Shown: positions 6,609 through 16,472 of the stretch, piece by piece
Numbering within the stretch: the stretch's first letter is position 1
Layout: every line of letters begins with the position of its first letter
From: Prochlorococcus sp. AG-355-J09
Lineage (GTDB): Bacteria; Cyanobacteriota; Cyanobacteriia; PCC-6307; Cyanobiaceae
DNA: 64,000 bases
Assembly: GCA_003278735.1 (NCBI GenBank)
Contig: QCDO01000004.1
Span: 1-64,000, forward strand
Reading direction: 5' to 3'
Position numbers and translations under genes: made by a program
The notes under the pieces: generated by a model
Told to the model about the DNA's origin: nothing
Database searches by the model: none
The model's input: the letters and a program-made list of their open reading frames with translations, nothing else

Positions 6609-6758
6609 ATGGCTGACCAAAAACCTTTATTTAAAGCACCTTATGACATAAAAGATGTAAGTGCTCTTTTCGCTATAGTTGCCTTCGTTTTAATAATCGC
6701 TGCCATAGTTGGGAATAACTTATTTGGTTTATTTCAACAAAATGTCAACTTTGGGTGA
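6609..6758 (+). CDS. Small membrane protein, 49 aa
   Basis: MADQKPLFKAPYDIKDVSALFAIVAFVLIIAAIVGNNLFGLFQQNVNFG; one TM helix. Confidence 0.6.
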   Translation: MADQKPLFKAPYDIKDVSALFAIVAFVLIIAAIVGNNLFGLFQQNVNFG

Positions 6759-6967
6759 TTTTTTGAAAGCAGACTACATTTTTTGTGAACTCATTTTGTG
6801 GACTAAATTTGACTAATGATAGATTGTTATAACGATTCAACTCATCATTATTAATAAAAATTCCTATCTCAAACTAGTTTCTTGAAATAATTTTTAAATC
6901 TTTGAATTTATAGACTGTGACTAATTTCTTATGTTATAGTTTTAAGTTCAATAAAACTGAAGAAACC

Positions 6968-7012
6968 TTTGGAGGGGTGGTCGAGTGGTTTAAGGCTCTA
7001 GTCTTGAAAACT
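6968..7012 (+). repeat. Left attachment-type repeat: 5' half of tRNA-Ser(UGA), exact 45-bp copy of 16110..16154
   Basis: tttggaggggtggtcgagtggtttaaggctctagtcttgaaaact present at both sites, diverging right after. Confidence 0.95.
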
Positions 7013-7306
7013 TAAACAGCCTATAGTATTTGCAAGTAAAGTGAGATAATTTTAAAAAAGGGGACTATATCAGGAGGACTATCATTACAATTATTTGGCT
7101 CTAGTTTACATAACTAGCTGATTACTAATATTTACCAGTTGATTTATATAAAAATGGAAGTAAGATTTTAAATAACTGATGAAGCACTACGGGAGACTCT
7201 GATCTTCAAATAGGTTTCTAATAATTACTTGTATAAACCCTTAAGCAAGGTGGATAGACGAGGTCAGGGTTGCTGTTATTCCTAACAACAATTCTCCAGA
7301 ATTAAT

Positions 7307-7495
7307 ATGGCTAAAAGTCGCTTTAATAGAAAATACAATGTTTCTGTAAGGAAGCGTTCCAATGATGATGCTAAATCAACTGCGGATTTTATTGAAGCTG
7401 CTGACCATGTTAATGAAGGCTCTGATTTATCTACGGCTACGCCAATGTTGAAGCATAGTTTTGAGAATCGTTTTAGGAAAGACAGCGACAGCTAA
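7307..7495 (+). CDS. Hypothetical protein, element left arm
   Basis: 62-aa ORF, basic N-terminus; first gene of a + strand cluster. Confidence 0.55.
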   Translation: MAKSRFNRKYNVSVRKRSNDDAKSTADFIEAADHVNEGSDLSTATPMLKHSFENRFRKDSDS

Positions 7496-7516
7496 GCAAT
7501 ATATCTTTTTAAACAA

Positions 7517-7726
7517 ATGAATACTTTTAGTCGAGAGGAACTTGCGTCTAAAAAAGACGTCAAAGAACTTAGAGAAACAGTACAAGAGTTAATCCAAAGT
7601 TTTTCTTTTACAAGAGAAACTGTTGACCAATTAAGAATGGATTTTGATCTGGCAAGAGAAGAGAATCCATTTAATGTGAATGTCTGGTTAAAGCCATCTG
7701 AATTTGGTGGAATTTTAAAAATTTGA
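7517..7726 (+). CDS. Hypothetical coiled-coil-like protein
   Basis: 69-aa ORF overlapping the next gene by 4 nt. Confidence 0.55.
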   Translation: MNTFSREELASKKDVKELRETVQELIQSFSFTRETVDQLRMDFDLAREENPFNVNVWLKPSEFGGILKI

Positions 7727-8604
7727 AAGAATTTACCAATTCAGGACAGTTTAAATATGGACAGAACGTCAAAGATTTGACAGGTAAAAAATATGGCAAG
7801 TTAACTGTTTTGAGAAGAGCCACTCAAAGTGAAATAAGTGCAAGAGGAGTAAAAAATACGAGACAAAATGTATATTGGTTGGTTCAATGTGCCTGCGGTA
7901 TTGAACCCTTTATAGTTCTTGGATTTGCATTAACAGGTAAAGATAAGAGAAGAAAAACTCAATCTGCCTTGGCTTGCAAAAAATGTGCAAGAAGAGATGC
8001 GGCAATAAGAGAAAAAAAAGAATTTATTGATTCAATTATTGGTCAACAATCTGGAAGATTAACAATACTTAGATATTGGGGAACTAAAAAAGACAGAAGG
8101 ACTAAAATTTTATGTTCATGTAGTTGTGATGATATAAAAACTCCCATTTATTTATATAGTTCTTTTAAAGCAGGCAAAGCTATTTCTTGCGGATGCGTAG
8201 TTGGAGGAGATGATTCATATAAATTCTTCAAGGAAAACGAAGATTGGGCAAATCGAAAATGCTATTACTATATAGCTGATAAAGATGATGAATTTTATAA
8301 ACTTGGGATTTCAGAAAAGAAATCAACTAGAGCAAGAGATGAAGGTTATAGAAAATATCTTTTTGAACCTGATCCACTTACAAGGTGTGAAGTATGGACA
8401 ATAGAACAATTAATCTTAAATGATTCTGTAAGAGCAAAACCAAGAGTAATTCCTGAAAGATTGGAGAAAATGGAGGGCAAATGGGAATTGAGATACAAAG
8501 ATACTTTAAATTTAAATTTTTATAGGGAAAAATATTATGAGTATCTTGAAAAACTGCAATCGCTGGGATGGGAGGAATTATATTTAACTAGATTTGATTA
8601 TTAA
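7723..8604 (+). CDS. Double zinc-ribbon protein with C-terminal GIY-YIG/T5orf172-like domain
   Basis: Two G.kyGkLTVL...CaCG...C..C / G..sGrLTIL...CSCSC...SCGC units, as in phage AP2/HNH-associated proteins, then CYYYIADKDDEFYKLGISEK...VWTIEQLIL. Confidence 0.65.
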   Translation: MKEFTNSGQFKYGQNVKDLTGKKYGKLTVLRRATQSEISARGVKNTRQNVYWLVQCACGIEPFIVLGFALTGKDKRRKTQSALACKKCARRDAAIREKKEFIDSIIGQQSGRLTILRYWGTKKDRRTKILCSCSCDDIKTPIYLYSSFKAGKAISCGCVVGGDDSYKFFKENEDWANRKCYYYIADKDDEFYKLGISEKKSTRARDEGYRKYLFEPDPLTRCEVWTIEQLILNDSVRAKPRVIPERLEKMEGKWELRYKDTLNLNFYREKYYEYLEKLQSLGWEELYLTRFDY

Positions 8605-8630
8605 AGGTAGTAAGCGTTTCATTCAAAAAT

Positions 8631-9194
8631 TTAAATTGAGGTTCCTCTTCTTTTATTTGGTGAAAGTTCATTTTCTGGGAAAATTTCCTTTAAATTTTCT
8701 GGAAAGAAAAACTCCAATTGTCTCCTTAAATTACCTTCATAAAATTTGTTTGGAACTTTAAAAGTATCTCTTACTAATTGAACATTTATTTTTTCCTTTT
8801 TACCTGCCTCATTTACTCTTAATAAGACTAACTTAATTGGCTTATCTTTTGGTCCTTTTATGAGAGAAACTGCTTCTGTTATACCCATTCCTCTCGTAGA
8901 TTTCCCATCTATTTTGATAATTACATCATTTGGTTGAATGTCAGCGGAGGCAGCAGGAGAATCATTTATTACAGATTGAATAGTTAATTCAGCAGTATCA
9001 CTATTAAGAAAGAGCCTTATTCCAATCCCTATTATCTCCTTATCTTTTTTGTGAGATAGATTTTTATTGGTTGTCACACAACCTGCATAATCTCGTGCTT
9101 CTAAACATTTTTTATGTAATTCATCAGATATTCCAGCATTAACAGCAGTAGGTAAAGAGAGGGCTGCTAGTAGTGGGAGTAGTAAGCGTTTCAT
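8631..9194 (-). CDS. Secreted/periplasmic PDZ-domain protein
   Basis: Signal peptide MKRLLLPLLAALSLPTAVNA; PDZ core SVINDSPAASADIQPNDVIIKIDGKSTRGM. Confidence 0.78.
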   Translation of the reverse strand: MKRLLLPLLAALSLPTAVNAGISDELHKKCLEARDYAGCVTTNKNLSHKKDKEIIGIGIRLFLNSDTAELTIQSVINDSPAASADIQPNDVIIKIDGKSTRGMGITEAVSLIKGPKDKPIKLVLLRVNEAGKKEKINVQLVRDTFKVPNKFYEGNLRRQLEFFFPENLKEIFPENELSPNKRRGTSI

Positions 9195-9407
9195 TTATTT
9201 ACCAATTATGCAACTATAATCTCTGCCCATTTTATTAATTGCTCTCCACTTTTCCCCTTCGCTCTCGCAAGCTTTTATATTTGGCATTTCAATTTTTTCT
9301 AACGCCCCAACTTTTCCTTTTTTGACTATTATCAACCAATAAGATTCTGCATTAACAGCAGTAGGTAAAGCGAGGGCTGCTAATAGTGGAAGTAGTAAGC
9401 GGTTCAT
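9195..9407 (-). CDS. Small secreted protein sharing the array signal peptide
   Basis: MNRLLLPLLAALALPTAVNA; TAA stop directly followed by ATG of the next gene. Confidence 0.7.
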   Translation of the reverse strand: MNRLLLPLLAALALPTAVNAESYWLIIVKKGKVGALEKIEMPNIKACESEGEKWRAINKMGRDYSCIIGK

Positions 9408-9424
9408 TTATTATTTTATAGAAA

Positions 9425-9718
9425 TTAATACCTCATTCTTAAATCACAATTTCTTGTAATTCTTATTTGATCTCTATAACCATATGCCATTTGATTCATT
9501 TCTGCTTCTGTAAAAGTACTGTTTTCAATTCTCTCAACGAATCTAGAAATTAATCTCTCAACCTTATATTTTGGATAACCTTCCCAAAGTAAAGTACAAG
9601 CGAAAGCTGCGGTACCTTCTCCAAAACTAGTTCTGTCGTAATGTGATTTAGCGGGACTTATTAATGATCCACTAATGGCAATTAAGCTAAAAAAAGAAAT
9701 TAGATTCTTTGCAAACAT
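9425..9718 (-). CDS. Small secreted protein
   Basis: 97 aa, N-terminal signal-like segment, Cys-containing mature part. Confidence 0.65.
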   Translation of the reverse strand: MFAKNLISFFSLIAISGSLISPAKSHYDRTSFGEGTAAFACTLLWEGYPKYKVERLISRFVERIENSTFTEAEMNQMAYGYRDQIRITRNCDLRMRY

Positions 9719-9784
9719 AAATAAATGGGGATTACCTCTCTAATTTAGATTATCTGTCAACAAGCGGAGTAGTAAGCGTTTCAT

Positions 9785-10071
9785 TTAACAACGAATATAT
9801 TGTCCCGATACACTTCCATATGAAGTCCCAGATATTTCTCCATAAACTTCTCCATATTCAACGTAAGCATTTTCTAATTTTCCTGATACAGATCCATAAA
9901 CAGAACCACCTCTAATATCACAACTTTCTATTATTTCCTCAACATCTTCTTCATCAAGAGAACCATATAAGCATATGCCTTTTCAGATAATGAAAATCCT
10001 AATTCTCTGCAAATATCATTAAACATATACCCACAGGAAAAGATTGATAAAATAATTAGAAATTTCTTCAT
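9785..10071 (-). pseudogene. Frameshifted small secreted-protein gene
   Basis: N-terminal frame MKKFLIILSIFSCGYMFNDICRELGFSLSEKAYAY; continuation ...YGSLDEEDVEEIIESCDIRGGSVYGSVSGKLENAYVEYGEVYGEISGTSYGSVSGQYIRC* is in another frame; 287 nt total. Confidence 0.6.
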
Positions 10072-10076
10072 TAAAA

Positions 10077-10115
10077 AAGGAGCTAATTGCCCCTTATTTT
10101 AGATCGACTGTCAAT
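10077..10115 (-). repeat. Array promoter/5'UTR module, copy
   Basis: aaggagctaattgccccttattttagatcgactgtcaat (minus: ATTGACAGTCGATCTAAAATAAGGGGCAATTAGCTCCTT). Confidence 0.9.
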
Positions 10116-10188
10116 ATTAGTCTTTAGGCCATTGATGAGAAACTAAACCACTTAGAGCAGATTTATTTCTTAGTTTATCTTTAAAAAA

Positions 10189-10509
10189 TCAATTAAATTT
10201 GATTTTACAATTTTCAAATTCTTCAGCAATATCATTAAACCCTTGAGCTAAAGCGTCTAAATCATAAGCATCTGCGGTTTCTGGATCCTCCATACTTTCT
10301 TCGAAATTAGAGGTAAAGATCTTTGCCTCAATGTTAGTTATCATCTCCGCATCTACTTGATCACAAAGCGTCCCACTTATTCCTGCTCCAAAACCATAGG
10401 AAAACCAGAAGGTAGAGTCCAATTTTTCTGCTTTAGAGTCAAGAGGAGCAAAAAATATTATAGGAACTACTAGTAATCTACAAAATTTATCTAAAAATTT
10501 AACGTTCAT
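10189..10509 (-). CDS. Small secreted protein
   Basis: 106 aa with signal peptide; downstream of a promoter module. Confidence 0.68.
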   Translation of the reverse strand: MNVKFLDKFCRLLVVPIIFFAPLDSKAEKLDSTFWFSYGFGAGISGTLCDQVDAEMITNIEAKIFTSNFEESMEDPETADAYDLDALAQGFNDIAEEFENCKIKFN

Positions 10510-10519
10510 GGATTAAAAC

Positions 10520-10558
10520 AAGGAGCTAATTGCCCCTTATTTTAGATCGACTGTCAAT
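10520..10558 (-). repeat. Array promoter/5'UTR module, copy
   Basis: Identical 39-nt copy of 10077..10115. Confidence 0.9.
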
Positions 10559-10600
10559 CGTATTTAATATAGCGGTGCAAGTAGTAAGCGTTTCATTTAT

Positions 10601-10921
10601 TTATATATTTTCTAATCTTTTTTGGCCTTCTTTTCTAGCCTTTTCGATTCCTTTTTTTGCAAGTATTGGCGTAGTCACTAATCCAATTAATGTTCCAGAG
10701 CTTTCTAACTTTTTCTCATCATAATTTGGATTTATTATTGCAACAATAGCTCCATAGGTAAATCCAATCGCGATATTACCCAAAAAAGCGAACAATAATG
10801 GTGTAATAGTTCTGCGGGTAATGGCATAATATATCCCTACAAAAGGTACTATGTGAGCTATTGCATAACCCCATGCAACATCTTTTTGCCTATTTTGAAA
10901 TCCTTCTAATTTAGTTGTCAT
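10601..10921 (-). CDS. Small membrane protein
   Basis: 106 aa with two to three TM segments. Confidence 0.68.
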   Translation of the reverse strand: MTTKLEGFQNRQKDVAWGYAIAHIVPFVGIYYAITRRTITPLLFAFLGNIAIGFTYGAIVAIINPNYDEKKLESSGTLIGLVTTPILAKKGIEKARKEGQKRLENI

Positions 10922-10955
10922 AAGTATTTAATTGATTGTCAGAGTTTAACTAAAT

Positions 10956-10990
10956 AGCTAATTGCCCCTTATTTTATATCGACTGTCAAT
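10956..10990 (-). repeat. Array promoter/5'UTR module, copy
   Basis: agctaattgccccttattttatatcgactgtcaat; one mismatch to the module. Confidence 0.88.
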
Positions 10991-11087
10991 CACTACTCAT
11001 TATTTATAGAGTAATTATTTTCTAATTAAATATTAATTATTCTAGAAGGTTCTCCCTCTGGTTCTTCGAGAGCTCTCCTGATTTATT

Positions 11088-11237
11088 TTATCTATCAAAA
11101 ATTCCAATCTGAATAATTGCAAATGCTGTTTGGATAGCTGATACAGAAGTATAACCTCTAGTTTTATCATCTAATGCTATTGTAATTAGTCTATTAGCTA
11201 ATGCAGCATAATCTAGTACTAATGATCCATTTAATAA
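11088..11237 (-). pseudogene. 5'-truncated ORF remnant downstream of the beta-barrel gene
   Basis: Frame reads LLNGSLVLDYAALANRLITIALDDKTRGYTSVSAIQTAFAIIQIGIFDR* with no start codon. Confidence 0.4.
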
Positions 11238-11241
11238 CTAA

Positions 11242-13017
11242 TTAGAAATGCCATCTTAAGCTACCACCGTAAGAATGCTGGCGCCCTTCATTGGTCACTC
11301 CAATTGTGGCATTAAGACTAAACATTAAATCTTTGGTACAAACAATATCTGCTCCTAATTTAGCAACTGCATTTACTACTCCAAAGTTTTTAGCATTCAC
11401 ATGAGTTGTGGTAGTGGTGCTGTTAGTTAATTTACCTTTAACGCCTTTTGTATTTTCTCCATCTGCTGCAGGGTCATAGGCTAGATCAATACCAAAAGAA
11501 GGAATTAAAATCCATTTACCTTTTTCCATTTGTATTTGCCTGTCAACAGTTATTCCTGTTTTTAGAAGTAATGATTCTGACTGGTTCTTATCTATAGAAA
11601 TGAGATCACCAGTACCTGTCTCAGATAATTCATCTTGATTATGTATTGCATAGGCAATTCCAGCAGTGGGTCTCAGACGGATTGGATTGTTTGAATTGTC
11701 TAGATATTTCTTGTAATTCCAGATGCCATTTATTTCTCCAGAAAAAGCATCTGCATCGTAATAGGAAGTTGCAACCGTAGAAGAATATGTTCCATAATTT
11801 CTATATCCGTAGTAGTCGAAATCAGAGCCACCAAAAGTAGCTTTTAAAGTAAATTTATCACTGGCTTTTTTAACACCGTATAAATAATAATGACTGTTAT
11901 ATGAATTAAAATTAGCCCTTGTATCAGAGAAATTAAAGTTATCTAGATTAGCGGAACCATAACCGTAAGATATACCAGCTTTCCATTTATCATTGATAGT
12001 TTTTTCAATATTTAGGGCGGTATTAAAAGCAGCAGTGTCATAACCACCTTTTGTAGAACTGCTGTTTACATAAGAGATGGTATTTTTTGCATTTGTATAG
12101 ACGCAGTAATCAGTATCACCAACTTGCCAACCGATGTTATTACATTCTCCAGCTTTTTCTAGAACTAAATCTCTATGATTTTTTATAGAAGCTAAGCCAA
12201 TATTCTGCATTGCTGCGTATGATTGTACCCACTCTGTGTGGAGCTGACTAATAGAAACTGAACTAGCAGTAACTGATTCTGAGGTGCTAGAACCATCTGT
12301 ATAAGCAACAGTAACTCTTATGGATTTTCCTTCTTCTGAGGGTGTAATCGTATAGGTTGAACTTGTAGCACCACTGATATCTGACCATGTGGAACCATCT
12401 GATGAAGATTGCCAAGTGTAAGAAGTAACTGTTCCATTACCATCAGGGTCATCTGTAGATATAACAGCAGTTAAGGAAGAACCTGCATATGTATCTCCAC
12501 TTATGGAGTAAGAAGCGTCTCCGGTATCGGTTACTGTAGGCGAACTTGACACTACAAAAGCAACATAACGATTATTCCAAATATTTATGGAGCTTGCATC
12601 ATTAGCCATAGTATTGTCGTAACCATTACTACTATGAGTAGAAGCATTACCATGATTTCTGACCCATCCCATAGTATTAAAACTTCCGTCCCCATTAGTA
12701 TCTGTCAAATGATATACAAAATGGGGGCCATATATTCCTGGTCCAGGACTTATGAAACCACTAATCGCACCTCCCGCTGCCATTGCGAATTCATAAGCTG
12801 ATGTGAATCCATTACTAACTCCTGAATACCAAGGATTACTCTGTACATCAGAAACGAAAGAATTGTAATCAGAATACTTTCGGCTTTTTATAACATAAGT
12901 GGTTTCGTTTATATCTACAGTCGCAGAACCAGTACTTAAGCTTGCATCTAAAGGTAAAAAATTAAAAAGAATAGTTACTGGAAGTAAAACTTTAGTAATT
13001 TTCATACTTATTTTCAT
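11242..13017 (-). CDS. Autotransporter-like outer-membrane protein with Ig-like repeat and C-terminal beta-barrel
   Basis: Signal peptide; Ig-like GTVTSYTWQSSSDGSTWSDISGATSSTYTITPSEEGKSIRVTVAYTD; alternating aromatic C-terminus ending ...GGSLRWHF. Confidence 0.78.
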   Translation of the reverse strand: MKISMKITKVLLPVTILFNFLPLDASLSTGSATVDINETTYVIKSRKYSDYNSFVSDVQSNPWYSGVSNGFTSAYEFAMAAGGAISGFISPGPGIYGPHFVYHLTDTNGDGSFNTMGWVRNHGNASTHSSNGYDNTMANDASSINIWNNRYVAFVVSSSPTVTDTGDASYSISGDTYAGSSLTAVISTDDPDGNGTVTSYTWQSSSDGSTWSDISGATSSTYTITPSEEGKSIRVTVAYTDGSSTSESVTASSVSISQLHTEWVQSYAAMQNIGLASIKNHRDLVLEKAGECNNIGWQVGDTDYCVYTNAKNTISYVNSSSTKGGYDTAAFNTALNIEKTINDKWKAGISYGYGSANLDNFNFSDTRANFNSYNSHYYLYGVKKASDKFTLKATFGGSDFDYYGYRNYGTYSSTVATSYYDADAFSGEINGIWNYKKYLDNSNNPIRLRPTAGIAYAIHNQDELSETGTGDLISIDKNQSESLLLKTGITVDRQIQMEKGKWILIPSFGIDLAYDPAADGENTKGVKGKLTNSTTTTTHVNAKNFGVVNAVAKLGADIVCTKDLMFSLNATIGVTNEGRQHSYGGSLRWHF

Positions 13018-13021
13018 ATGA

Positions 13022-13186
13022 TTAAAAATAGCTAATTGATTTCAATAAATTGATTTTTGTGCGGTTTTCGGAATCCAGAAAGTCGACTGCCTGCATGCAC
13101 ATTTCAGCTACTATAGGATCAACATCTGCTTTAACAGCAGTAGGAAAATCGATAGCTGCTAGCAATGGAATTAGTAAGCTTCTCAT
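13022..13186 (-). CDS. Small secreted protein, diverged member of the array signal-peptide family
   Basis: Own translation MRSLLIPLLAAIDFPTAVKADVDPIVAEMCMQAVDFLDSENRTKINLLKSISYF*; not in the ORF track. Confidence 0.55.
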   Translation of the reverse strand: MRSLLIPLLAAIDFPTAVKADVDPIVAEMCMQAVDFLDSENRTKINLLKSISYF

Positions 13187-13300
13187 TTATTTGGTATTTA
13201 TTTTTTTCGTAATTCTGAGATAAATATATAAACCAACACCAAGAAGAAATACATCTAAATAAATATGCCATGGGAAAATATCTGGTAAAACAGTTTCAAT
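13187..13300 (-). CDS. Possible small membrane protein with non-canonical ATT start or a lost start
   Basis: IETVLPDIFPWHIYLDVFLLGVGLYIYLRITKKINTK*; placed as in the other modules (after the promoter module; TAA abuts ATG of 13186). Confidence 0.35.
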   Translation of the reverse strand: METVLPDIFPWHIYLDVFLLGVGLYIYLRITKKINTK

Positions 13301-13306
13301 GAAAAG

Positions 13307-13342
13307 TGGCTAATGGCCCCTTATTGTAGATCGACTGTCAAT
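13307..13342 (-). repeat. Array promoter/5'UTR module, variant copy
   Basis: ggctaatggccccttattgtagatcgactgtcaat. Confidence 0.85.
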
Positions 13343-13389
13343 TATTAAAAACTTTCTACTCGACTTAATAAATATTCCCAATCAACAGT

Positions 13390-13530
13390 TCATCCATCTT
13401 TCTTGGCTTCCATATCATCTTCTCTTAATGCCTTACGAGCTTTTTGTAATTTTATATCATATTTAAAATCATTTGCCTCGTCTGGATCAGAGGTGTAATT
13501 AATAATATTTTGTTTGGTGTAAATTTCCAT
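13390..13530 (-). CDS. Small hypothetical protein, 46 aa
   Basis: MEIYTKQNIINYTSDPDEANDFKYDIKLQKARKALREDDMEAKKDG*. Confidence 0.5.
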   Translation of the reverse strand: MEIYTKQNIINYTSDPDEANDFKYDIKLQKARKALREDDMEAKKDG

Positions 13531-13732
13531 ACGTTAATTTTAACCAATTTCGCATTTTTTTTCGCAATAAAATTAGCTTCGCGTACATAAATCTTGTTAT
13601 ATCATTGGATCATAAGATTTGAGTTCCTTCGTAGCTAGAAGGTAATTATATAATTAAGGACTTTCAGGACTAATAGGACTCTTCTATTTGAATCAGTAAT
13701 AAAGCTAGTAGTGGGAGTAGTAAGCGTTTCAT

Positions 13733-13966
13733 TTATTTAGCTCTTACACAGTTAAAAGTAATCTGATACTTAGCAACGTATTTAGGAGTCCAATTTTTAT
13801 TATTAACAAAATCTTGACCAGCTTCTTCGCATATTTCTAAGGTTTTCATTGGAACAACAAAAGTATGTCTATCTGCTGATCCCAAAAGATAATAATTAGC
13901 AACTTCTGCATTAACAGAAGTAGGTAAAGATAGTGCAGCTAGTAGTGGGAGTAGTAAGCGTTTCAT
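13733..13966 (-). CDS. Small secreted protein sharing the array signal peptide
   Basis: MKRLLLPLLAALSLPTSVNA N-terminus. Confidence 0.7.
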   Translation of the reverse strand: MKRLLLPLLAALSLPTSVNAEVANYYLLGSADRHTFVVPMKTLEICEEAGQDFVNNKNWTPKYVAKYQITFNCVRAK

Positions 13967-13970
13967 TTAT

Positions 13971-14273
13971 TTAGTCTCCACAATCTCCACCATCTCCACC
14001 TCCACAACCTCCACCATCTCCACTACTTCCATTACCACCATCACCACTTTCCCCGAATTTACTTCTTGATGTATTTATTACTTCTTTAAATTTAAAATCG
14101 CCGCTAATTATATTAAGACTAAACTGAGCTATAGCTATGAAAAATATGAGTAGACCATTTAATAGACCCTTAAATGCAAGAACAAATAAAATAGCCCAAA
14201 GACTATAATTTATATATTTTTTGTATTTCCTAAGAAATTCCAAATTAAAAATTTCAAGTAGTAAGCGTTTCAT
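13971..14273 (-). CDS. Membrane protein with Gly/Asp/Cys-rich C-terminal tail
   Basis: MKRLLLEIFN start, two TM segments, tail GDGGNGSSGDGGGCGGGDGGDCGD. Confidence 0.65.
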   Translation of the reverse strand: MKRLLLEIFNLEFLRKYKKYINYSLWAILFVLAFKGLLNGLLIFFIAIAQFSLNIISGDFKFKEVINTSRSKFGESGDGGNGSSGDGGGCGGGDGGDCGD

Positions 14274-14674
14274 CTAGGTAGTATTCTATTTAATTCTGGA
14301 TATTCAATTCTTAATTCTTCTATAAATGCATCAACAGCCTTTGATATCTCGTCAGTAGTATCCAAAATAGAATTTTTATATTTTAGATATTCGGAAACTT
14401 GAAATAATTTCATAGTTGATTTTGTTAAAAGTAATGTTGCGAGAGGAGATTTATCTGCCAATTTAGTTGAAGGAAAATATTTTATAGTTTCTGGATAAGT
14501 TACTTCCATATCCTCAATATAGTCTTCTATCTTTTCATTTAATTCATCATATTTTGTTGATAAAAACTTTTTGGTATTTAAATATTCAAACCCTGCGAAT
14601 AAAAAACCAATAGGAAAACTTAAAAATAATATTGAAAGAGAAATCCTAAGAAGATTCTGGGAAAATTTTTCCAT
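14270..14674 (-). CDS. Membrane-anchored hypothetical protein
   Basis: N-terminal TM; 4-nt overlap with the downstream gene; promoter module just upstream. Confidence 0.68.
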   Translation of the reverse strand: MEKFSQNLLRISLSILFLSFPIGFLFAGFEYLNTKKFLSTKYDELNEKIEDYIEDMEVTYPETIKYFPSTKLADKSPLATLLLTKSTMKLFQVSEYLKYKNSILDTTDEISKAVDAFIEELRIEYPELNRILPR

Positions 14675-14678
14675 AAAA

Positions 14679-14717
14679 AAGGAACTAATTGCCCCTTATT
14701 GTAGATCGACTGTCAAT
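14679..14717 (-). repeat. Array promoter/5'UTR module, copy; overlaps the recombinase stop codon
   Basis: aaggaactaattgccccttattgtagatcgactgtcaat. Confidence 0.88.
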
Positions 14718-15684
14718 TATTAAGTTTCCTTGATGCTTTTATAGCATCAATTTGTTCGTAAGTAGAGTTATAAATCTCATAGTGAGTATTAATTGAGTGA
14801 CCAAGACTTTTACTCGCAACTCTCGCATCTAACCCTGCGTGAATACTTCTAACTCCCCAATTATGTCTAATATCCGTAAGTTGTAAGAATCCAATACCCA
14901 ACTCTTTAGCCCTGGGCGTTAGATACCTTAACCATTGATTGCCAAGATATTTAGTTCTCGTTGGGTCATAGTCGTTTAGATCGAAAGTATATTCTCGTTG
15001 AATGTTATCCAGTTCCCATTTGATAGCCAGTTCCTTAGTAAGTGCTATTGGATATTTCATATACATAGACTTCTTACCTTTAGGAATACAGACACTTGTG
15101 GCAGTACCACTATCTAAGTCGGGTATGAGTGAGAAAGTTTCACCGCTACGAGTGCCGTAACAGAAAGCACTAGCTGTAAGCCAGCCCCATTTCTCGTTAT
15201 CTCTAACCATTTCGACCAACTCTATTAACTTTGCTGGGTCAATGTTTACTCTTTGCTTGGCTTTGTATCTACCGACAAACTCATCAATAAGTTCTACATT
15301 ATTTAGTCCGTTAGCTTCCGCAAGTCGTTTGTAGTATTGGCAAAGTTTTCTTCTTTTATCAGACTCAGGTTCACTTTGTTTTATCTCATCAATTAAGACT
15401 CCCATATTTAGAGTTGCATTTTGTGGGAGTTTATTTAAGTGGCCTAGTATTCCTTTCCAGGTCTGTTGCTTTGGTAATTTATTTCTATCCTTATCTTTCC
15501 AGTAATCAAGTTCAAATATTTTTATAGCTTCATTAACAGTTATTCCTTTCGATACTCCTTTTAACTCAACCTTTGGCGTGTCCCACATTAGTTGGTCTGG
15601 TATGAATCCGTTTTTATTTACATATTCAACTAGGGTTAATATTCTGGCTTCTGCTGAGACTAGGTTGTTTTTATCAGCACTCAA
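14713..15684 (-). CDS. Tyrosine recombinase / phage-type integrase (coding frame continues upstream without ATG to about 15898)
   Basis: Catalytic-core signatures: YGTRSGETFSL, LTDIRHNWGVRSIHAGLDARVASKSLGHSINTHYEIYNSTYEQI (R..H..R..LGH..Y). Confidence 0.9.
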   Translation of the reverse strand: MSADKNNLVSAEARILTLVEYVNKNGFIPDQLMWDTPKVELKGVSKGITVNEAIKIFELDYWKDKDRNKLPKQQTWKGILGHLNKLPQNATLNMGVLIDEIKQSEPESDKRRKLCQYYKRLAEANGLNNVELIDEFVGRYKAKQRVNIDPAKLIELVEMVRDNEKWGWLTASAFCYGTRSGETFSLIPDLDSGTATSVCIPKGKKSMYMKYPIALTKELAIKWELDNIQREYTFDLNDYDPTRTKYLGNQWLRYLTPRAKELGIGFLQLTDIRHNWGVRSIHAGLDARVASKSLGHSINTHYEIYNSTYEQIDAIKASRKLNN

Positions 15685-15828
15685 TCTAGTTGGAATCTTA
15701 CGTTCCTTTTTTATTCCGTCCGAATCTGCAAAAGTTCCACGAATAAATAAATGATTACGTCCTACAACCAGCTTTGCTTTGATGTTTCTTGTCTTAAGTC
15801 TCTTATTTAAGTCCGATATTGCAGAAAG

Positions 15829-15851
15829 TGTTTCCGAATCTGTTTCCGAAT
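15829..15851. repeat. Pair of direct repeats tgtttccgaat (15829-15839, 15841-15851)
   Basis: Read directly; same 11-mer recurs at 15942-15952 and 15953-15963. Confidence 0.85.
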
Positions 15852-15941
15852 TTGTTGCACCCAGCCCCCTACCTTGTACACTACCGCCAGACCCTTTTTT
15901 GTTACCAATTCCAAAAATCCCGCCATTTGGTTAGGTTAATC

Positions 15942-15963
15942 TGTTTCCGAATTGTTTCCGAAT
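15942..15963. repeat. Second pair of direct repeats tgtttccgaat
   Basis: ctgtttccgaattgtttccgaat. Confidence 0.85.
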
Positions 15964-15965
15964 AT

Positions 15966-16101
15966 ATGTCCTAAAATGTCGCAAAATGTCAAGTATATGT
16001 CAAGATTTAGGAAATACTTTATAAGCAATATGAAACAGGCAAAAACTCATATTGTAGGCTGTCACTTCCCTTTGCTATACTACTTAGGTGGTTAAAACTG
16101 A
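15966..16101. other. Recombinase-tRNA intergenic segment starting with four atgtc repeats at 10, 10 and 11 bp spacing (15966-16101 includes an element-borne tRNA promoter)
   Basis: atgtcctaaaatgtcgcaaaatgtcaagtatatgtcaag; TATACT at 16076-16081. Confidence 0.6.
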
Positions 16102-16112
16102 ATAACCCTTTT

Positions 16113-16199
16113 GGAGGGGTGGTCGAGTGGTTTAAGGCTCTAGTCTTGAAAACTAGCGTGTCTGCAAGGGCACCGTGGGTTCGAATCCCACCCCCTCCG
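16113..16199 (+). tRNA. tRNA-Ser (anticodon TGA)
   Basis: GGAGGGG acceptor pairs with CCCCTCC; anticodon stem ctagt-cttgaaa-actag; long variable arm; GGTTCGAATCC T-loop; 87 nt. Confidence 0.97.
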
Positions 16200-16271
16200 T
16201 TCAAATAAAAAAACCGAATAATAAAAACGCCTTTTTGAAACGTTCTTGTTAAGATAAATTTTATTTAGATT

Positions 16272-16472
16272 ATGAGTAAAGGATTCGCCACAGATAATTT
16301 AATATCCAAAAAATCGAAAAAAAAAGTTATTTCAAATGAAACGCAAGGAAGATTAATATCTTGGTCTCCTTGGCCACCTGCTAATTTTCAAACACAATAT
16401 CCTGCTTTCCCTTTTGTTCTTACAATATTGATTATAGTAATCGGACAATGGTACCTTTCTCTACTCCGGTGA
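16272..16472 (+). CDS. Small membrane protein
   Basis: 66 aa with C-terminal TM. Confidence 0.6.
   Translation: MSKGFATDNLISKKSKKKVISNETQGRLISWSPWPPANFQTQYPAFPFVLTILIIVIGQWYLSLLR

Follow-up and report, generated by a model that had tools for sequence, protein, structure and literature searches.

An island in the 5' half of a Prochlorococcus tRNA-Ser(UGA) gene appears to have supplied the gene with a new promoter

Introduction

Among the tRNA-gene islands collected by Islander, 159 carry a 5' fragment of the target gene and 3760 a 3' fragment (PMC4383910), so that integration into the 5' half is the minority mode. According to a review of archaeal tyrosine recombinases, bacterial tRNA genes keep their original promoter after integration with very few exceptions, and archaeal pTN3-like integrases use the 5' half of the tRNA gene, which results in expression of the tRNA from the integrase promoter (PMC8371274). 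In pTN3 the rebuilt tRNA-Leu gene is separated from its original promoter (PMC5495485); attP lies inside the integrase gene, integration splits that gene, and the rebuilt tRNA gene has the integrase promoter. Thus, islands with a 5' fragment and the separation of a tRNA gene from its promoter are already known in kind. For Prochlorococcus, the summary description of the tycheposons gives them as cargo elements of 4-200 kb with a tyrosine recombinase at tRNA genes (PMC10872708).

Here, we analyze a stretch of 64,000 nucleotides (the window; positions 1 to 64,000 of contig QCDO01000004.1 of Prochlorococcus sp. AG-355-J09) in which an island adjoins the gene for tRNA-Ser(UGA). With the Islander 5'-fragment islands it has in common an intact tRNA gene, a displaced 5' fragment upstream in the same orientation, a tyrosine integrase at the island end, a crossover in the anticodon loop and relatives with an empty site. 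It differs from that class in that several element families have used a single tRNA gene of a single genus in this way, which allows a comparison of the replacement promoters. With pTN3-like elements it shares a crossover region that extends over the 5' half of the tRNA (41 bp in pTN3) and a rebuilt tRNA gene parted from its original promoter. In contrast to pTN3, however, the integrase frame lies unsplit and wholly inside the island and points away from the tRNA gene, which has a dedicated promoter-like sequence. The length of 9.1 kb, the site at a tRNA-Ser gene and the tyrosine recombinase agree with the tycheposons as summarily described.

Results

The coordinates of the locus are collected in Table 1. 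In the source genome (1.58 Mb in 46 contigs) one tRNA-Ser(UGA) gene was found, to which ARAGORN assigns the bounds 16112-16200; the other tRNA-Ser genes found have the anticodons CGA, GCU and GGA. By the decoding rules, UCA codons should therefore depend on this one gene, which would make tRNA-Ser(UGA) essential and the loss of its promoter lethal. Elements integrating in its 5' half would then have to bring a promoter. A preliminary description of the window had taken the duplicated segment to be tRNA positions 1-42 and had assigned the 5' half and upstream region of the intact gene to the element. Both statements hold, since the displaced fragment, which lies upstream of the intact gene in the same orientation, is identical to it letter for letter, and the only intact copy is found at the far end of the island.

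Table 1. Features of the tRNA-Ser(UGA) locus and its island in the window
Feature	Position	Strand	Remarks
Left chromosomal flank marker, short conserved ORF (49 aa)	6609..6758	+	at left border in most relatives
Native (displaced) tRNA-Ser promoter, putative; TAGACT-18 nt-TATAGT, TG one base before -10	6911..6940	+	pattern scan
Native leader	6941..6970	+	
Displaced 5' fragment of tRNA-Ser(UGA), positions 1-42	6971..7012	+	exact copy (42/42)
Left end of island, type common to G044 and G050	7013..7070	+	homology through junction to 7070/7068
Island body, 9.1 kb	7013..16112	.	missing from empty-site relatives
Island ORF with autotransporter beta-domain	11242-13017		Pfam PF03797, E 1.3e-21
Tyrosine recombinase (integrase), predicted	14713..15684	-	directed away from tRNA; open frame runs on to about 15920
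Direct repeat pair TTCCGAA, possible arm-type site	15832..15850	.	kept in sisters
Second TTCCGAA pair, possible arm-type site	15945..15962	.	kept in sisters
32-nt block, candidate element-borne promoter	16050..16081	+	invariant in eight sister elements, ends exactly at -10
Extended -10, TGC TATACT, element side	16073..16081	+	
Element-borne leader, homologous to native leader	16082..16112	+	
Intact tRNA-Ser(UGA)	16113..16199	+	Rfam bounds; 5' part from element, 3' part chromosomal
Right chromosomal flank marker, conserved short ORF (66 aa)	16272..16472	+	flank search of relatives

The product of 14713..15684 is, as judged from its predicted model (mean pLDDT 73.6), a tyrosine recombinase. In a fold search the best PDB matches were XerA, Tn1549 Int and lambda Int, and the R...HxxR...LGH...Y residues are present in the alignment of integrase relatives. 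Profile matches are weak (PHROG integrase, E 0.009), and Pfam and NCBIfam profiles gave no match to the protein. A weak profile match fits the tycheposon recombinase, which Hackl et al. in 2023 are said to have called 'deep-branching'. The ATG used by the integrase relatives of G150 and G102 is present at 15920-15930 of the window, but in a different frame from the remainder of the integrase; a sequencing error, use of another start codon or early decay may account for this. The tRNA-Ser genes in phage records were of the ordinary kind, and the integrase had no relative there.

The island may have moved as one unit. Alternatively, it may be composite: an older element would have left the end at 7013-7070, a second element would have integrated beside the tRNA gene, and the fragment between the two would have been lost. 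In favor of this, the first 58 bp of the island match the left ends at the outermost fragment in G044 and G050, whereas the three sisters with the same integrase whose left end could be read have a different one with arm repeats; in relatives, moreover, two or three 5' fragments occur in tandem. Against it, a second tRNA fragment was not found inside 7013-16112, and recombination can exchange element ends. We regard a composite origin as an even chance. In that case the present promoter of the tRNA gene would be that of the second element, which is compatible with the explanation of the promoter that we prefer.

The two copies of the 5' half have -10-like boxes where the preliminary description placed them, TATAGT at 6935-6940, 30 nt before the fragment, and TATACT at 16076-16081, 31 nt before the tRNA gene. 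On both sides, a single base separates the hexamer from a preceding TG (TGTTATAGT, TGCTATACT), which gives an extended -10. The leader had also been called partly conserved, and indeed the native and element sequences are 67% identical from -60 to -1, a value reached by 0 of 2000 shuffles. By part, no shuffle out of 2000 was as good over the last 20 nt, and 4 out of 2000 were over -60 to -21. An alignment that beats all shuffles argues that the element upstream is a diverged relative of the host promoter and leader, not an unrelated sequence, which suggests that the promoter cassette of the window element was probably captured from a host.

The native promoter was located by a pattern scan whose score is on its own not above the shuffle mean. 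On the element side, a sigma-70 scan requiring a -35 over 15680-16300 returned no canonical -35/-10 promoter. As no -35 is recognisable, the assignment of the element promoter is based on position, conservation, recurrence and the extended -10. By these features the region 16050-16112 would drive tRNA-Ser transcription, with 16076-16081 as the putative active -10. Other tRNA genes of the same genome, read by eye from their loci, have no fixed -10 distance.

The sequence 15940-16112 is present in 12 of the 151 genomes of the genus that were searched with the left and right flanks. Relatives whose downstream gene is 95-97% identical to that of the window have other promoters before tRNA-Ser; in G100 the downstream gene is 90.5% identical, the integrase is the same (97%), and the -60 region is 98% identical to the window. 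As far as these sequences tell, the element-side upstream follows the element, not the host lineage. Within eight sister elements the block 16050-16081 (TATTGTAGGCTGTCACTTCCCTTTGCTATACT) is invariant, and the 30 nt just upstream have diverged. None of 5000 column permutations gave an equal run for the 32 nt, the longest run obtained being 19. Such a run points to visible constraint on the element-side upstream, and the conserved block may serve recombination, too.

A profile built from an alignment served to search for relatives of the integrase. In all 22 distinct cases beside an intact tRNA-Ser(UGA) gene, the integrase is found on the 5' side at a distance of 359-433 nt and on the minus strand; each of the 22 also has a -10-like hexamer (5/6 match to TATAAT or better) that ends 28-32 nt before the tRNA gene. 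The hexamer is kept before 54 of 56 intact genes (shuffle expectation 0.28) as compared to 19 of 33 displaced fragments (expectation 0.33). The extended form TGnTATnnT occurs in 58 of 75 intact upstreams, a set that includes two other tRNA-Ser genes (0.7% expected), and before 16 of 37 fragments (<1% expected); all these sets are phylogenetically non-independent and the counts are descriptive.

At 70% identity, the upstreams of intact genes fall into six groups: native and native-like (26), the 122-bp unit (19), class E (5), the window type (4) and two singletons. The native-like group includes integrase-borne cassettes (G009, G069, G070, G071, G144), which seem to resemble the native promoter no further than about 60 nt upstream.

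The 122-bp unit is represented by 19 distinct sequences (e.g. L006:1336-1589) with about 122 bp between a 5' fragment (1-44) and the next tRNA start. It contains a left-end motif, two GTTTCCGAA-type repeats and a TGnTATAAT of its own, and comes in two sequence subtypes; its promoter has no significant similarity to the native one. In its left part the unit is similar to the left ends seen in G150, G102 and G050 on elements with an integrase, and this likeness suggests an element reduced to its two ends. In G050 and G102, a 122-bp unit is located upstream of a full element, which indicates that a later element integrated at the tRNA gene and moved the earlier promoter, with its 5' fragment, away from it.

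Three further loci were noted. In G088 (L176:6224-6281), which counts against the explanation of the promoter that we prefer, a member of the integrase family stands beside a 3' fragment of tRNA-Ser (31-88) with neither promoter nor 5' half, and an intact tRNA-Ser(UGA) gene was not found in this incomplete assembly. One contig, G096:C15, contains two intact tRNA-Ser(UGA) genes in inverted orientation (2436-2523 and 15894-15981), each with an integrase, possibly as an assembly artefact. Contig G070:C43 (L181), with integrase, promoter, tRNA positions 1-42 and then element DNA, was considered as a free attP and rejected; it is read as a tandem array because its left end resembles that of the integrase-bearing element in G009. 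The two ends of this contig do not overlap each other.

The conserved block 16050-16081 could also be explained mainly as a site for the recombinase or an excision factor in attP, in which case the -10 would be incidental and the tRNA would be transcribed by read-through or from another start. Its position in the P-arm region by the integrase, its conservation among sister elements and the missing -35-like hexamer agree with such a role. However, the hexamer also stands at this distance in cassettes unrelated in sequence (122-bp units, class E, L019), displaced fragments lose the hexamer more often, and the nearest upstream gene, that of the integrase, is directed away from the tRNA gene. We thus consider this explanation unlikely and read the block as part of a promoter brought by the element.

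Such an origin of the promoter predicts that relatives with an empty site have the native type of sequence before tRNA-Ser, as the preliminary description had pointed out. Among the loci fetched, the left-flank gene lies within 420 nt of an intact tRNA-Ser gene in 20; 16 of these are uninterrupted upstream and the remaining four hold the 122-bp unit. In all 16 uninterrupted relatives the predicted 6900-6970 type was found: their upstreams reach 85-95% identity with 6911-6970, as against 59-67% with 16053-16112, the sequence 6911..6940 directly precedes the intact gene, and none of them has the 16050-16112 sequence at this place. Eight of the 16 (G109, G034, G085, G003, G014, G140, G047, G099) are empty on both sides, with the right flank directly following. 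Together with the 42/42 identity, these empty sites rule out a chance duplication of 6971-7012. The converse idea, that the element-side sequence is the ancestral upstream and 6900-6970 that of the newcomer, found no supporting point and is contradicted by these same 16 relatives, whose 6900-6970 type upstreams are continuous with the left-flank gene, so that we give it practically no weight.

Discussion

In the tRNA-Ser(UGA) gene, the anticodon stem comprises positions 28-32 and 40-44 and the loop positions 33-39 (CTTGAAA). Displaced 5' fragments match the tRNA up to positions 38-51, mostly 40-44, and 3' fragments found in relatives on the other side of the gene start at 27-33. In most 122-bp units, tRNA position 40 is already element-derived (GAAAGCTAG for GAAAACTAG). 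The fragment ends and the element-derived position 40 indicate that the exchange takes place in the anticodon loop, like that of the classical type. From these sequences we infer that the crossover is located at position ~39 or before it, within the loop.

We propose that a tyrosine recombinase would have directed site-specific integration into the single-copy tRNA-Ser(UGA) gene at its anticodon loop, with an attP that carried promoter, leader and tRNA 5' half as one cassette next to the integrase gene. Through strand exchange the promoter and 5' half of the chromosome would have ended up as a dead fragment at the other end of the island (6911-7012), and the gene would have come under element DNA. 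The working gene (16050-16199) would then be chimeric, its promoter, leader and 5' half coming from the element and its 3' half from the chromosome, and the extended -10 promoter of the element would keep the essential tRNA transcribed and so make the 5' mode of integration survivable. We assign a probability of roughly 0.86 to this reading. That the element carries a promoter, as claimed in the preliminary description, is supported by the upstreams at empty sites, the co-travel of promoter and integrase and the constraint on 16050-16081; like the anatomy and the recurrence with other cassettes, these are direct observations.

What appears to be new at this locus, relative to Islander, pTN3 and the summary description of the tycheposons, is a hotspot in bacteria at which promoter cassettes of several non-native kinds have replaced each other before a single-copy tRNA gene. 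Also new, at the level of sequence, is a measurable conserved promoter block within the replacement promoter. A promoter-like cassette stands at nearly the same distance in every examined integrase-bearing 5'-side element with an intact tRNA gene, and about 150 genomes thus offer a natural series for how integration into the 5' half is made tolerable. It is plausible that this mode is rare because it cuts the gene from its promoter. More tentatively, and with the odds rather against it, the tRNA-Ser(UGA) promoter itself might be regarded as mobile DNA that successive elements overwrite, the last arrival setting expression; the host would have become dependent on the element end, since any deletion except precise excision would remove the promoter. 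Promoter replacement at a presumably essential RNA gene can be tested directly here, by mapping the RNA of strains that have the element and of strains that lack it. Vertical inheritance of tRNA upstream regions should not be assumed in this genus.

The tRNA-Ser gene is hit by elements from both sides. Insertions on the 3' side, with 3' fragments from positions 27-33, were observed at L065:13945-14006 and 15228-15288, at L076:5015-5075 and in G128 (L085), and several 3' fragments are preceded by a common TTCGGTCATAT...TTCCTTAA-like motif. Several elements (L065, L067, L064) have, about 80-130 nt inward from their left end, a second copy resembling the anticodon stem-loop; it reads CTCTAGTCTTGAAGACTAGCG in G150 and G050, is similar in G102 and is degraded in the window (7097-7118).

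Finally, several ORFs of the island begin with a near-identical signal-peptide-like start (MKRLLLPLLAALSLPTAVNA) that is repeated together with adjoining DNA (9131-9205, 9345-9412, 13703-13747, 13900-13974). The repeat looks like an exchangeable leader for secreted cargo and recurs in the islands of G150 and G044.
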